This document shows, piece by piece, positions 40,409 through 45,519 of a stretch of DNA of 64,000 bases. The stretch lies in the NCBI RefSeq assembly GCF_022899935.1, contig NZ_JALJCJ010000002.1:124001-188000 (forward strand), written 5' to 3'. This stretch comes from Shinella curvata. Its GTDB lineage: Bacteria > Pseudomonadota > Alphaproteobacteria > Rhizobiales > Rhizobiaceae. The notes under the pieces were generated by a model. The model saw nothing but the letters and a program-made list of their open reading frames with translations. It ran no database searches and was not told the origin of the DNA. Numbering within the stretch: position 1 is the stretch's first letter; each line of letters starts with the position of its first letter. Position numbers and translations under genes: made by a program.

Positions 40409-41545
40409 ATGAAGATACGCGATTTCGGCGTCGAGATCTGGATGAACCGCTACGAGAACCATTGCGAGCTGAACCTTGCCGAAACCTGCGTGGAATCGCT
40501 GACGGTGGAGGAGCTGCTTGACATGGCCGGCAAGAAGGAGGCGATCCTTGCCGAACTGCTGCCGATGAAGCTGACCTATGGTGCCATCGAAGGCAGCGAG
40601 CGGCTGCGCAAGCTGATCGCCGGTCTTTATGAAAAGCAGGCGATGGAAAACGTCGTCGTCACCCATGGCGCGATCGGCGCCAATGCGCTGGTGCATGAAA
40701 CCCTGGTGGAGCCGGGCGACCGCGTCATCTCGGTTCTGCCGACCTACCAGCAGCATTATTCCATTCCGGAAAGTTTCGGCGCCGACGTGCAGATTCTCAA
40801 GCTGACGGCCGAGCATGGCTTCCTGCCGGATCTTGAAGAGCTGCGCCGTCTCGCGACGCCGGGCACCAAGCTGATCTGCCTCAACAACCCGAACAATCCT
40901 ACCGGTTCGCTGATGGACCGCGATTTCCTGCTTCAGGTCGTCGAGATCGCCCGTGCCGCCGGCGCCTGGATCCTCTGCGACGAGGTTTATCGCGGTACGG
41001 ACCAGGAAGGCGACGGCATGACCGCTTCGATTGCCGATCTCTACGAGAAGGGCATTTCGACCGGCAGCATGTCCAAGACCTATTCGCTGGCCGGCCTGCG
41101 CCTGGGCTGGATCGTCGGGCCGCAGACGCTGCTGCATGCCGTCTCCATCCATCGTGACTACAACACGATCAGCGTCGGCATGCTGGACGATCATTTCGCG
41201 GCAATCGCGCTGGAAAATCGCGACAAGATTCTCGCGCGCAGCCATGCCATCACCCGCACTAACCTCGCCATCCTCGCCGCATGGGTGGAGAGCGAGCCGC
41301 TGATCTCCTGGGTAAAGCCGAAATCCGGCACGACGGCGCTTTTGAAATACGACCTGCCGATGACGTCGGAAGCCTTCTGCACCAAGCTTCTGGAAGCGAC
41401 CGGCGTGATGCTCACGCCCGGCAGCGCCATGGACATGGAGGGGCATCTGCGCATCGGCTACACCAATGGCGAAGAGGTGCTGCACGAGGGGCTCAAGCGA
41501 ATCTCCGCCTTCCTGAGGCAGGAACAGGCATCACAGGCCGCCTGA
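40409..41545 (+). CDS. Class I/II PLP-dependent aminotransferase
   Basis: 378 residues; ATG after GAAAGGAG. PLP landmarks: NNPNNPTGSLM, LCDEVYRG (aspartate for the pyridine nitrogen), and the Schiff-base lysine in GSMSKTYSLAGLRLGW. The N-terminal DFGVEIWMNRYENHCELNLAETC is characteristic of a subgroup related to capreomycidine synthase and other arginine-derived aminotransferases. The amino-acid substrate is not known. Next to a divergent XRE-cupin regulator; a hairpin at 41571 ends the unit. Confidence 0.85.
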   Translation: MKIRDFGVEIWMNRYENHCELNLAETCVESLTVEELLDMAGKKEAILAELLPMKLTYGAIEGSERLRKLIAGLYEKQAMENVVVTHGAIGANALVHETLVEPGDRVISVLPTYQQHYSIPESFGADVQILKLTAEHGFLPDLEELRRLATPGTKLICLNNPNNPTGSLMDRDFLLQVVEIARAAGAWILCDEVYRGTDQEGDGMTASIADLYEKGISTGSMSKTYSLAGLRLGWIVGPQTLLHAVSIHRDYNTISVGMLDDHFAAIALENRDKILARSHAITRTNLAILAAWVESEPLISWVKPKSGTTALLKYDLPMTSEAFCTKLLEATGVMLTPGSAMDMEGHLRIGYTNGEEVLHEGLKRISAFLRQEQASQAA

Positions 41546-41570
41546 ACGCATCCTTAACGAACGCTTACGG

Positions 41571-41595
41571 CACCCATGCGCCATTCGCATGGGTG
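41571..41595 (+). terminator. Hairpin, probable terminator of the aminotransferase
   Basis: CACCCATGCG / CGCATGGGTG, a perfect 10-bp stem with loop CCATT, 25 bases after the aminotransferase stop. The T-run is weak. Confidence 0.5.
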
Positions 41596-41708
41596 TTCTG
41601 CCATCTCCGCGCTGTTCCGCATTGCAGCATAGAGCTATAAAGCCGCCATCGAAAGACGCGGCGCCACGGACCGGTGCCGAACAGAGAGCCTCCGGAAAGG
41701 GGATCATC

Positions 41709-41855
41709 ATGAACATGGCACGTTCCTTCAACAATTGGCGCAAGTATCGTCAGACCGTCAACGAACTCGACCGCATGACCACGCGTGAACTGCGCGATCT
41801 CGGTATCGAACGTTCGGAAATCAAGACCGTCGCCCGCGCTGCCGTCGGTTTCTGA
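41709..41855 (+). CDS. DUF1127 (YjiS-like) small protein
   Basis: 48 residues, ATG after GGAAAGGGG. The C-terminal half has the DUF1127 signature LDRMTTRELRDLGIERSEI, with a basic helix before it (SFNNWRKYRQTVNEL). In Rhodobacter sphaeroides a DUF1127 protein is co-transcribed with four CcsR ('cuckoo') sRNAs, takes part in RNA turnover and the oxidative/stress response. Here the gene is followed by a terminator and then by four CCUCCUCCC hairpins on the same strand (42044-42199), the same arrangement. Confidence 0.9.
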   Translation: MNMARSFNNWRKYRQTVNELDRMTTRELRDLGIERSEIKTVARAAVGF

Positions 41856-41885
41856 TCGGCAGGCTGCAAAGCCAAAGAATTCTGG

Positions 41886-41912
41886 AACGCCCGCCCTCCG
41901 GCGGGCGTTTTT
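41886..41912 (+). terminator. Rho-independent terminator
   Basis: AACGCCCGCC / GGCGGGCGTT, a perfect 10-bp stem with loop CTCC and TTTTT, 30 bases after the DUF1127 stop. Partial read-through would extend into the sRNA array. Confidence 0.85.
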
Positions 41913-42043
41913 GCATGTGCGAACAGCCTGGTCGCGATTGGGATTGGTTCGGCAGGTTGAGATATTCGATCCGCGCATAGCGCATAGCTGCATTGCAAAA
42001 CGATGCCTATGAAATGATCAAGAATCGCATATAGTCATATTTA

Positions 42044-42199
42044 TCGAAGCAACGTACCTCCTCCCACGAAGCTTCGATTGTGCAGAAGGCCCACTCCTCC
42101 TCCCAGGGCCGACTGCGGGAATGGCGGCACTCCTCCTCCCAGTCGCCATTCGGTTCTATCGGAAAGCCTGCCGCACCTCCTCCCGCGGCAGGCTTTTCC
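42044..42199 (+). ncRNA. Tandem array of four 'cuckoo'/CcsR-type sRNA hairpins
   Basis: Four consecutive stem-loops each display CCTCCTCCC in the loop (loops at 42057, 42096, 42132 and 42176). Hairpin 1: TCGAAGC at 42044 with GCTTCGA at 42071. Hairpin 2: GCAG/GGCCC from 42082 with GGGCC/CTGC ending 42116. Hairpin 3: GAATGGCG at 42119 with CGCCATTC at 42144. Hairpin 4: a ~12-bp stem (GCCTGCCGC at 42166 with GCGGCAGGC at 42185) followed by TTTT, likely the terminator. The exposed anti-Shine-Dalgarno loops and the upstream DUF1127 gene match the CcsR/cuckoo family of alphaproteobacterial stress RNAs. Processing into separate RNAs is inferred from Rhodobacter. No separate promoter was identified. 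Confidence 0.88.
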
Positions 42200-42330
42200 A
42201 TTTCTGGACCTTGTTTTCTTTCCCAATCTACAAACGCGCGCCTCTTTTCAATGACCGCCATCACAGGCTTTTCATCGAAGTCTGTTTCCCTGTATTTTTG
42301 AAAATATAGCGCTGGCCAAGCCGTAAATGC

Positions 42331-42354
42331 CGATATATTCAATGAGATATCACG
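42331..42354 (+). promoter_or_regulatory. Candidate ModE operator upstream of modA
   Basis: GATAT at 42332 and ATATC at 42347 form an inverted pair separated by ten bases in an AT-rich context (CGATATATT ... GATATCACG), 33 bases before modA. It resembles ModE sites (TATA-rich arms) but is imperfect. Confidence 0.35.
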
Positions 42355-42386
42355 CTGCCGGGAAGGCAGGAAAAGGGAGAGCCGGA

Positions 42387-43160
42387 ATGAATCGTCGCCT
42401 GATTTTGAAACTCGTCGTCGCCGCCTTCGCGTCGCTGCCGCTTGCCCTGCCGGCCGCAGCCGCCGAAAAGGTCACCGTTTTCGCTGCCGCCAGCCTCAAG
42501 AATGCGCTGGATGCCGCCAATGCCGCTTGGTCGAAGGACAGCGGCAACGAGGCGACCGTCTCCTATGCCGCAAGTTCGGCGCTCGCCAAGCAGATCGAGG
42601 CGGCGGCCCCCGCGGATCTCTTCATCTCGGCTGACCTTGCCTGGATGGATTATGTCGCTGAAAAGAAGCTGATCAAGGACGGCACCCGCGTCAACCTGCT
42701 CGGCAACCGCATCGTGCTCGTCGCACCGAAGGACAAGGCCTCGACGGTCGAGATCAAGGAAGGCTTCGATCTCTCTGGTCTCGTCGGCGACGGCAAGCTC
42801 GCCATGGGCGCGGTCGACAGCGTGCCGGCCGGTAAATACGGCAAGGCGGCGCTGGAAAAGCTCGGCGTCTGGTCATCCGTCGAAGGCAAGGTCGCCGGCG
42901 CGGAAAGCGTGCGCGCAGCGCTCGCGCTCGTCTCGCGCGGCGAAGCGCCCTATGGCATCGTTTACCAGACGGATGCCGCCGCCGATCCGGGCGTCGCCGT
43001 CGTCGGCACCTTCCCGGAAGACAGCCACCCGCCGATCATCTACCCGGTCGCCATCCTCTCGGAATCCAAGAGCGCTGCCGCTGCCGCATACCTGGACTTC
43101 CTGAAGTCCGACAAGGCCGCGCCGTTCTTCACCGAGCAGGGCTTTACGATCCTGAAGTGA
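42387..43160 (+). CDS. modA: Molybdate ABC transporter substrate-binding protein
   Basis: 257 residues from the ATG at 42387 (AAGGGAGA upstream). A signal peptide ends near AAA/EK. Mature features are VTVFAAASLKNALDAANA, VSYAASSALAKQIEAAAPADLFISADLAWMDY, GAVDSVPAGKYGKAALEKLG and SRGEAPYGIVYQTDA, all typical of ModA's oxyanion cleft. It captures molybdate or tungstate in the periplasm for ModBC. It is first in modABC but separated from modB by 223 bases containing a RIME-like repeat. Confidence 0.93.
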   Translation: MNRRLILKLVVAAFASLPLALPAAAAEKVTVFAAASLKNALDAANAAWSKDSGNEATVSYAASSALAKQIEAAAPADLFISADLAWMDYVAEKKLIKDGTRVNLLGNRIVLVAPKDKASTVEIKEGFDLSGLVGDGKLAMGAVDSVPAGKYGKAALEKLGVWSSVEGKVAGAESVRAALALVSRGEAPYGIVYQTDAAADPGVAVVGTFPEDSHPPIIYPVAILSESKSAAAAAYLDFLKSDKAAPFFTEQGFTILK

Positions 43161-43231
43161 GGCGAGCCTCGCGATAGGTTTGGCCACTAGCCTGAACCCA
43201 GTCGTATTGGCCTTGCATCCTCTCAAACGTC

Positions 43232-43299
43232 ATCCTCGGGCTTGACCCGAGGATCCATGCCGCGGGCGTGGTGTGGATGGTCGGGTCAAGCCCGACCAT
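43232..43299. repeat. RIME-like palindromic repeat element
   Basis: Two hairpins: ATCCTCGGG-cttga-CCCGAGGAT (43232-43254) and ATGGTCGGG-tcaag-CCCGACCAT (43277-43299). Their loops are complementary, so the whole forms a larger imperfect palindrome. This is the form of the Rhizobium-specific intergenic mosaic element RIME1 and related REP-type sequences. It lies between modA and modB, inside the putative operon, where it could stabilise the upstream mRNA or attenuate modBC. Confidence 0.75.
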
Positions 43300-43383
43300 G
43301 ACGACGGAGAGGGAAGGGCTCAATCGACAATATCCAGCCCCGGTCCCGGTATCCGGGACCGTTCGCCTTTCAAGGAAGCATGT

Positions 43384-44085
43384 GTGGACTGGCTAGCGCT
43401 CAGCGATGAGGAATGGACGGCGATCCGCTTGAGCCTGCGGGTCTCGTCGGTGGCCGTGCTCGTCAGCCTGCCGCTCGGCATTCTCGTCGCGCTGGCGCTG
43501 GCGCGCGGACGCTTCTGGGGCAAGTCGCTCCTGAACGGCATCGTGCATCTGCCGCTCATCCTGCCGCCCGTCGTTACCGGTTTCATCCTGCTCGTGCTGT
43601 TCGGCCGGCGCGGTCCCGTCGGCGCCTTCCTCAACGACTGGTTCGGCATCGTGCTCTCCTTCCGCTGGACGGGCGCGGCGCTGGCCTGCGGCGTGATGGG
43701 CTTCCCGCTGATGGTGCGCTCCATCCGGCTCTCCATCGAGGCCGTTGACCGCAAGCTGGAGGAGGCGGCCGGCACGCTGGGCGCGAGCCCCGCCTGGGTA
43801 TTCCTCACCGTCACCCTGCCGCTGATCCTTCCGGGTGTTCTCGCCGGCATGATCCTCGCCTTCGCCAAGGCAATGGGCGAGTTCGGCGCGACCATCACCT
43901 TCGTCTCCAACATTCCCGGCGAAACGCAGACGCTGTCGGCGGCCATCTACACCTTCACCCAGGTGCCGGGCGGCGATGCGGGCGCGCTGCGCCTCACGCT
44001 CGTCGCTATCGCCATTTCCATGGTCGCGCTGCTCGCCTCCGAAATCCTGGCGCAGCGCCTCGGCCGCAAGGTGAACCTCGAATGA
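43384..44085 (+). CDS. modB: Molybdate ABC transporter permease
   Basis: 233 residues from a GTG start with AAGGAAG upstream; no nearer ATG fits. Five to six transmembrane helices, with [26 protein letters not shown] and the coupling loop [59 protein letters not shown], the ModB signature. It forms the molybdate channel. The stop overlaps modC (ATGA). Confidence 0.93.
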
Positions 44086-45155
44086 GCCTCGTGGTCGAAG
44101 TCCGCCACCGGCTCGGCGATTTTTCGCTGGATGCCGGTTTCACCGCCGAGGGCGGCGTGACCGCCCTGTTCGGCCGCTCCGGCTCGGGCAAGACCTCGCT
44201 GATCCGCATCATCGCCGGCCTGACGCGGCCCTCGGAGGGTCGCGTGCAACTCGGTGACGACGTGCTTGTCGATACGAGCCGCCGCCTCTTCGTGCCGCCG
44301 CACCGCCGCCGCTTCGGCTATGTGTTTCAGGAGGCCCGCCTTTTCCCGCATCTCACGGTGCGGCAGAACCTGAATTACGGCCGCTGGTTCTCGCCGAAGG
44401 GTGCGCGCCCGGAAAATCCCGGCCGCATCATCGCTCTGCTCGGCATCGGCGATCTGCTCGATCGCCAGCCGGCAAACCTCTCGGGTGGCGAGAAGCAGCG
44501 TGTCGCCATCGGCCGCGCGCTGCTGGCGTCGCCGCGCCTGCTGCTGATGGACGAACCGCTCGCCGCACTCGACGAGGAGCGCAAGGCCGAAATCCTGCCC
44601 TATCTCGAACGCCTGCGCGACGAGGCCGGCATTCCCATCGTCTATGTCAGCCATTCCGTCGCCGAGGTCTCCCGGCTGGCCGACAGGGTGGTGCTGATGG
44701 CCGGCGGCCGGGTCGAGGCCGTCGGTCCGGTTTCCGATGTGCTCGGCGGCCCGCGCCTGGCCTCCGCCATCGATCGTCGCGAGGCCGGCAGCGTGCTCTC
44801 GGGCCATGTCGAGACGCGTGATGCCGAGCATGGTCTGGCCACCATCCGCCTCGATGGCGGCGCCGCCATCCTCGTGCCGGGCGCCATGGTGTCTCCCGGC
44901 GACGCGGTGCGCCTGCGCATCCCCGCCCGCGACGTCATGGTGGCGACGGTGCGCCCGGAGGGTCTGAGCGCGCTCAACATTCTGGAAGGCACGGTGGAGG
45001 CCATCGAGCCCGACGGGGAGGGCATGGCAAGCCTGCGCATCGCTTGCGGCGGCGATCACGTGCGCGCCCGCATCACGGCGCTCTCGGTCGAGCGGCTTGG
45101 CCTCACGCCGGGCCTGCCGGTTCATGCCGTCATTAAGACGGTCGCGCTCGAATAG
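44082..45155 (+). CDS. modC: Molybdate ABC transporter ATP-binding protein
   Basis: 357 residues, start overlapping modB. Walker [10 protein letters not shown], signature LSGGEKQR and Walker [17 protein letters not shown], with [18 protein letters not shown]. The C-terminal ~65 residues form a Mop/TOBE domain ([26 protein letters not shown]) that binds molybdate and regulates the pump. Convergent with modE. Confidence 0.94.
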
Positions 45156-45159
45156 ATTT

Positions 45160-45519
45160 TTAATCGGCGAGATTGGCGACGATCCAGCCGATCTCGTCGG
45201 CCAGCGCCGCTCGCGCCTTCTCTTCCATGGCCTGGTAATGCGCGATAAGCGCCTCGCCGAAGGGCGTGAGCACCGCGCCACCGCCCTGCTTGCCGCCGCG
45301 CTGCGATTCCACCACCGGCTCGCGAAACAGCCGGTTCATCTCGTCGACCAGAAGCCACGCGCGGCGATAGGACATGTCCATCGCCCGGCCGCCAGCGGAA
45401 ATAGAGCCGGTCTCCTTGATATGCGCGAGAAGCTCGATCTTGCCGCGCCCGATCCGTCCCTCCGGGTCGAATTGCAGGCGGAAGATGAGTTTCGGTTCGC
45501 TTTTACCGGATGCTGACAT
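45160..45519 (-). CDS. modE: ModE-like winged-helix regulator, N-terminal domain only
   Basis: 119 residues matching the ModE DNA-binding domain: KLIFRLQFDPEGRIGRGKIELLAHIKETGSISAGGRAMDMSYRRAWLLVDEMNRLFREPVVESQRGGKQGGGAVLTPFGEALI is the LysR-type winged helix found in ModE. The usual C-terminal Mop domains that bind molybdate are missing, so how it senses molybdate is unclear; it may act with ModC-type Mop proteins. Convergent with modC, five bases apart. A terminator with T-run sits only a few bases upstream of the start, so no room remains for a normal ribosome site. Confidence 0.85.
   Translation of the reverse strand: MSASGKSEPKLIFRLQFDPEGRIGRGKIELLAHIKETGSISAGGRAMDMSYRRAWLLVDEMNRLFREPVVESQRGGKQGGGAVLTPFGEALIAHYQAMEEKARAALADEIGWIVANLAD

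Follow-up and report, generated by a model that had tools for sequence, protein, structure and literature searches.

A four-hairpin array in Shinella curvata, contained in the 64-kb stretch of DNA analysed here (hereafter the window), is by its sequence a member of the known alpha-r14/cuckoo family of small RNAs, and directly upstream of it, on the same strand, lies a gene for a small DUF1127 protein. The reading that I favour, at a probability of about 0.8, is that the two are neighbours with a transcript each, both under the control of a single LysR-type regulator, one of them yielding the DUF1127 protein and the other an RNA of about 157-160 nt that masks Shine-Dalgarno (SD) sequences, the Shinella counterpart of SmelA099. 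An LsrB/VtlR-type box stands before each of the two units (Table 1), and this shared box is the point most worth pursuing.

Table 1. Features of the DUF1127 unit and of the array unit, with positions in the window
Feature	Position	Strand	Remarks
LsrB/VtlR-type box GCATGGGTGTTCT before DUF1127	41587-41599	+	GCAT-N3-TG-N3-T match; start codon 122 nt downstream
DUF1127 small protein, 48 aa	41709-41855	+	Pfam PF06568, E 2.5e-16
Intrinsic terminator of the DUF1127 gene	41884-41914	+	stem-loop and T-run; -21.9 kcal/mol, z -3.97
LsrB/VtlR-type box GCATAGCTGCATT before the array	41982-41994	+	fits GCAT-N3-TG-N3-T; distance to the first motif 75 nt, to hairpin 1 62 nt
Probable -10 element TATAGT	42030-42035	+	kept in the Shinella alignment; aligns with the abcR and SmelA099 promoters
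Hairpin 1	42044-42077	+	CCUCCUCCC loop 42057-42065; beyond the three-hairpin Rfam model; two-sided changes in 5/10 pairs
Hairpin 2	42081-42117	+	CCUCCUCCC loop 42096-42104; two-sided changes in 10/10 pairs; 85.7% of cells paired
Hairpin 3	42119-42151	+	CCUCCUCCC loop 42132-42140; two-sided changes in 7/10 pairs
Hairpin 4, also terminator	42161-42198	+	CCUCCUCCC loop 42176-42184; -26.2 kcal/mol, z -6.60
Rfam RF02344 (ar14) match	42076-42200	+	103.6 bits, gathering score 58.8, E 5e-18, full model 1-123

The motif CCTCCTCCC occurs in four exact copies in the window, all on the plus strand (42057, 42096, 42132 and 42176), and is absent elsewhere in it on either strand, a count that was reached in none of 100 dinucleotide shuffles (mean 0.70); in the predicted fold, CCUCCUCCC is unpaired in all four hairpin loops. 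The first-pass annotation, which had described four stem-loops with one loop motif each, is thereby borne out. As a whole, 42044-42203 has a predicted folding energy of -70.4 kcal/mol (z -6.20, equalled by none of 200 shuffles). Taken singly, hairpin 4 is outstanding and hairpin 1 moderate (z -2.87), whereas hairpins 2 and 3 are unexceptional by energy alone, their z scores being only -1.77 and -1.80; internal loops are predicted in hairpins 1 and 2, and stems are uninterrupted only in hairpins 3 and 4. The T-run of hairpin 4 had been called terminator-like, a wording that is fair as long as it is not taken to mean strong, because the tail, TTTTCCATTT, is short.

The covariance-model check that had been proposed gave an Rfam ar14 match far above the gathering score; it covers hairpins 2-4 and leaves hairpin 1 outside the three-hairpin model. 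The sole other above-gathering Rfam match in the window is a tRNA, and the genome as a whole yields five matches to ar14 at E <= 0.001, of which three exceed the cut-off. Multiplication of such arrays is also seen in relatives: one stretch (L114, 691-1470), from a single genome, holds three tandem three-motif arrays with an exact 352-nt period and no DUF1127 match, and four separate four-motif arrays (L078, L079, L080 and L081) are found within one genome (G094), with no DUF1127 match nearby.

A motif of this kind is general. The string GGGAGGAG lies 3-12 nt before an ATG 51 times in the genome, as against 16 times for the reversed string, and this generality would suit a titrating RNA, the anti-SD loops of which dampen translation broadly or bind a protein, for instance the DUF1127 product, and do not act on chosen mRNAs; along the same line, the DUF1127 protein CcaF1 is reported to bind RNA (PMC10253847, PMC12501420). 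Yet the excess of 51 over 16 is expected of any purine-rich SD string, NfeR1, of the same RNA family, is described as acting on defined mRNAs, such as those of ntrB and of transporter genes (PMC10746234), and the short Agrobacterium DUF1127 proteins act by binding PhoR (PMC12501420). Titration is thus regarded as unlikely. The prediction of targets from the motif alone (GGGAGGAG-N3-12-ATG) was likewise discarded, since any SD string gives as much. Reading frames were viewed at 30 of the 51 places and Pfam was run on 11 of those, which returned two extracellular solute-binding proteins (L282, L259) and two transport proteins (L277, EamA; L272, DctQ), the remainder being mostly enzymes and a ROK/MarR-type protein; L266 had no Pfam match at 1e-5.

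The DUF1127 gene was placed and identified correctly in the first-pass annotation. In all 20 fetched Shinella orthologues it lies on the same strand, 198-214 nt 5' of the first motif. Between gene and array stands an intrinsic terminator, as strong as had been claimed, which is the one terminator-like site in 41500-42450 (shuffled mean 1.0) and whose stem is kept through paired changes in the Shinella alignment. A simple terminator finder saw such a site in 17 of 20 Shinella DUF1127-array gaps, in 20 of 33 gaps of the named set (among the matches listed; none seen in 13) and in 1 of 8 family gaps (none seen in 7), the latter two counts meaning that the DUF1127 terminator is not universal or is sometimes missed by the finder. 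The named set comprises 80 stretches listed of at least 119 and overlaps the Shinella and family sets. On the other side of the array, modA, modB and modC lie at 42387-45519, together with a ModE-domain gene on the opposite strand; by tblastn, modA also adjoins the array in 9 of the 20 Shinella stretches retrieved, some of which end short of that gene.

The main argument concerns the position of the boxes. Both fit the published LsrB/VtlR operator consensus, GCAT-N3-TG-N3-T (PMC7486931, PMC8844928). The box before the DUF1127 gene is found 121-122 nt upstream of it in every one of the 20 fetched Shinella orthologues and, at 121-128 nt, in 20 of 20, 1 of 1, 3 of 8 and 25 of 33 genes of the sets compared, the last being the named set among the matches listed. 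For the array box the distance to the first motif is 73-76 nt, and at this place it is present in 19 of the 20 Shinella orthologues, in one of three other Shinella four-motif arrays, in 10 of 15 family arrays and in 58 of 63 named arrays (among the matches listed; within 2 nt), being missing in the remaining 1, 2, 5 and 5, respectively; SmelA099 has it as well. By chance, about 0.001 boxes per array would be expected at the fixed offset, given the density of matches in the same loci, and in the 150-base stretches leading up to the 63 named arrays (among the matches listed) only a single further match stands at another offset. Seventeen of the 80 named loci were excluded from the box count, as they do not have four exact motifs per group or lie near a locus end, and so were L075 and L091; these counts are not independent of one another, given the overlap between the box sets and the homology of the arrays. 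The window as a whole contains 10 matches to this loose consensus, and the evidential weight therefore lies in the conserved position and not in the match alone.

Two further patterns were tried. The Brucella VtlR 15-mer with at most 3 mismatches gives 2 matches in the window against 2.96 expected, that is, not above chance. A tighter pattern derived in the present analysis, YGCATRGSTGNNNTG, gives 2 window matches against 0.08 expected and 12 across the genome, where the reversed control gives 7; since it is circular for its source loci, the argument rests on the published consensus and on position. Of the 12 genomic matches, three precede AbcR genes, one each precedes the DUF1127 gene, the array and a gene for a 50-aa DUF3563 protein, and six have no clear partner. 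The match before the DUF3563 protein (L250, 1501-1738) lies 88 nt upstream of it, so that this may be another small-protein gene belonging to the circuit. The DUF1127 box, for its part, is set within an inverted repeat, CCCATGCG-N5-CGCATGGG (window 41577-41600), and accordingly matches on both strands (41579 on the minus, 41587 on the plus strand). In a relative with two tandem ar14 copies (L111), one of the copies is without a good upstream box match.

Support that is probably more independent than any drawn from homologous arrays comes from the AbcR (ar15) genes, of which the genome has four, all above the cut-off (G000:C1:37100, C14:332043, C11:1015120 and C11:1015335). In three of the four, a box lies 61 nt before the Rfam start, matching its place in the array, and the promoters of array and abcR align in the box and in the -10 region. 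For a start at 42043, suggested by SmelA099, the array box would occupy -61 to -49; in the abcR1 promoter of S. meliloti the LsrB box is located at -61 to -49 (PMC8844928). Because a sigma-70 consensus scan of 41500-42450 found no promoter, I only infer that TATAGT is the -10 element.

A candidate for the regulator is provided by the neighbourhood of these genes. A LysR-type gene lies between a fragment of a pyridine-nucleotide-disulphide reductase gene and the abcR pair, in the same order as the Agrobacterium genes trxB-vtlR-abcR1-abcR2 (PMC7486931). VtlR has been described to bind, by EMSA, and to activate the small-protein gene atu1667, an orthologue of Brucella small-protein genes (PMC7486931) which are termed DUF1127 (PMC12595884), so that DUF1127 genes, too, are driven by VtlR (PMC7486931, PMC12595884). 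The same source puts the box-controlled promoters of A. tumefaciens at only three, does not name an ar14 RNA in this group, and saw no effect of LsrB on abcR in S. meliloti under the conditions used (PMC7486931), contrary to PMC8844928. Concerning the ar14 family itself, LsrB activates NfeR1, whose loops silence ntrB redundantly; the LsrB site in its promoter, at -72 to -60, is written TGCA-N6-GCAT, which is another consensus (PMC10746234).

The likeness to the Rhodobacter CcsR RNAs, which had been put forward as an identity of plan, holds for the gene order and the loop motif: in the CcaF1-CcsR1-4 locus, as in the window, a DUF1127 gene is followed on the same strand by cuckoo-type RNAs. It does not extend to the plan of transcription. 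In R. sphaeroides, ccaF1 and CcsR1-4 are reported to form a single transcript, made from an RpoHI/RpoHII promoter and processed by RNase E (PMC10253847, PMC8625941), whereas the window appears to have a terminator and a separate promoter-like block with its box before the array; the analogy is therefore only partial, and going by sequence the array does not lie in a DUF1127 3' UTR, as the RNAs of a single CcaF1-CcsR transcript do. The Rhodobacter DUF1127 protein is also longer (71 aa, as against 48 aa), and the Rhodobacter RS0680a-type RNAs have two stem-loops each (PMC3927594).

It could nonetheless be proposed that an operon of the CcaF1-CcsR type exists here too, DUF1127 mRNA and array forming one transcript and the DUF1127 protein helping RNase E to excise single hairpins. 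Besides the shared order and motif, such a reading would draw on the description of short DUF1127 genes with CcsR-like RNAs as the CIN1 locus (PMC10253847), on the gaps in which the finder saw no terminator, and on six relatives (L071, L084, L085, L086, L115 and L116) in which DUF1127 precedes the array by only 28-109 nt, a gap that makes a joint transcript plausible in them. In Shinella, however, the DUF1127 terminator is maintained by paired changes and the array is preceded by a conserved block that resembles a promoter and carries a box at a fixed distance; moreover, among the matches listed, 33 of the 63 named arrays have DUF1127 upstream and 30, by the test used, do not, whereas 58 have the box. 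A joint transcript is thus improbable for the window. As the DUF1127 unit has a box and a terminator of its own, the adjacency would point to a shared regulator and not to a shared transcript.

In the six relatives themselves, gene and array would seem to share a transcript in the manner of CcaF1-CcsR. In L084, L085 and L086, the best upstream match to the Brucella-type box is only 7-8/15. L115 (1073-1465) and L116 (1394-1826) each carry three tandem three-motif arrays, 157 nt and 176-178 nt apart, respectively, directly behind two DUF1127 matches, the nearer of which is 28 nt upstream; these two have the look of a joint transcript as well.

The hairpins are conserved in relatives, which was one of the two points on which the first-pass annotation had staked its claim. 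The three-motif pattern is present in 21 of 21 Shinella genomes and in 109 of 151 genomes of the family Rhizobiaceae, while a reversed-pattern control in the Shinella and family genomes gave no matches among the matches listed. All 20 fetched Shinella orthologues have four exact motifs, and since four-exact-motif arrays are common across the family, the array can hardly be called unusually clean, as it had been. In the Shinella alignment, the roughly 70 bases directly 5' of hairpin 1 form a strongly conserved block, and the spacer between the DUF1127 terminator and this block varies.

The stems were compared in an alignment of 43 rows: the window, plus 42 arrays that the analyst chose out of 88 distinct ones (15 from the genome sets, 26 from the named set, and SmelA099); left out were, among others, L084, L085, L096 and L102, the first hairpins of which differ. 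Two-sided changes affect 23 of 44 stem pairs (shuffled mean 13.4) and 154 cells (shuffled mean 46.1), neither figure being matched in 500 shuffles, a statistic in which the kinship among the 43 arrays is still contained. Pairing is retained in 94.9% of cells, as against 33.9-48.7% with the partners slid. Hairpins 1-3 account for most of the changed pairs (Table 1), and hairpin 4 is nearly invariant, with two-sided changes in 1 of 14 pairs, an invariance that is partly due to selection because one retrieval pattern fixed hairpin 4; invariance of the loops is unusable as evidence, since the arrays were gathered by exact motif. That the array is a 3' region that is stabilising or rich in terminators, or else a repeat in the DNA, with no role as a trans-acting regulatory RNA, is highly improbable: tandem similar hairpins with a terminal hairpin can form 3' ends, but here the stems change in a compensatory manner and every copy bears the motif in its loop, transcripts of the family have been sequenced in S. 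meliloti (PMC2873474), and silencing by NfeR1 has been tested (PMC10746234).

Judging from the alignment, the closest described RNA is SmelA099 (smrA6) of S. meliloti, listed as one RNA of 160 nt at pSymA 1328175-1328334 (PMC2873474) and already published in the four-hairpin form (PMC3927594). Its array was found at the published position in the pSymA stretch and aligns with the window over its whole length, the reported 5' end corresponding to window position 42042. Both have four hairpins with the same loop motif in the same order, an identical hairpin 4 stem and an LsrB-type box, which in SmelA099 lies 74 nt before the first motif; SmelA099 differs in the sequence of stems 2 and 3 and in having no DUF1127 match nearby (a 4-kb stretch was searched). 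In the parts of the SmelA099 literature that were consulted, no account of its regulation was found.

For SmelA075, which has three hairpins, a full-length band is described, along with shorter ones from which one or two stem-loops are missing. The four stable RNAs of 35-45 nt that had been expected of the Shinella array are, by analogy with SmelA099 and SmelA075, probably not the likeliest outcome, and four independent mature RNAs were rejected as the main product, given that SmelA099 is listed as a single RNA (PMC2873474).

Two other systems deserve comparison. NfeR1 (Smr14C2) of S. meliloti, also covered by Rfam ar14 (RF02344), belongs to the same family and has the same loops; it has three hairpins against the four of the array, a sigma-70 promoter with an upstream LsrB site of a different form and, as a feature of its own, an NtrC site (PMC10746234). 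AbcR1/2 (alpha-r15) share with the array the LsrB-type box and an anti-SD mode of action, which the array would exert in its turn, although they belong to another RNA family with another fold.

The anatomy of the locus, its conservation, the covariation of its stems and the constant place of the boxes are direct observations of this analysis. The mechanism that I infer for the two units, from transcription and its start site through binding and control by LsrB to the translation block and its targets, would be as follows. LsrB/VtlR, bound at 41982-41994, would activate the array's own promoter; the RNA would start near 42042-42043, as judged from the 5' end of the homologous SmelA099, and would continue as one molecule of about 157-160 nt ended at hairpin 4. 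Each CCUCCUCCC loop may then pair with purine-rich SD sites and block translation, the four loops being possibly redundant, as has been described for the three loops of NfeR1 (PMC10746234). The other unit, equipped with a separate box and terminator, would meanwhile supply the DUF1127 protein.

Whether this arrangement can be generalised is, in my estimate, an even bet. In Rhizobiaceae, DUF1127 and the four-loop RNA may constitute a two-unit cassette, in which LsrB/VtlR, linked to both redox state and nutrients, switches on each unit separately, the one for a small arginine-rich protein and the other for a translation blocker with several loops. The neighbourhood of DUF1127 genes and cuckoo RNAs, noted long ago, would then stem from the shared operator, and other lineages would retain the joint transcript. 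No description of such a shared-operator arrangement of DUF1127 and a cuckoo RNA was found in the portions of the literature searched.

To sum up, the known alpha-r14 family is hereby extended to Shinella, and the promoter finding offers a direct and testable reason why DUF1127 genes adjoin cuckoo RNAs. It predicts that AbcR1, NfeR1 and the four-hairpin arrays all belong to one LsrB/VtlR circuit. If this is true, a single regulator would govern three kinds of product, namely the AbcR RNAs, the multi-loop alpha-r14 RNAs and the DUF1127 proteins.
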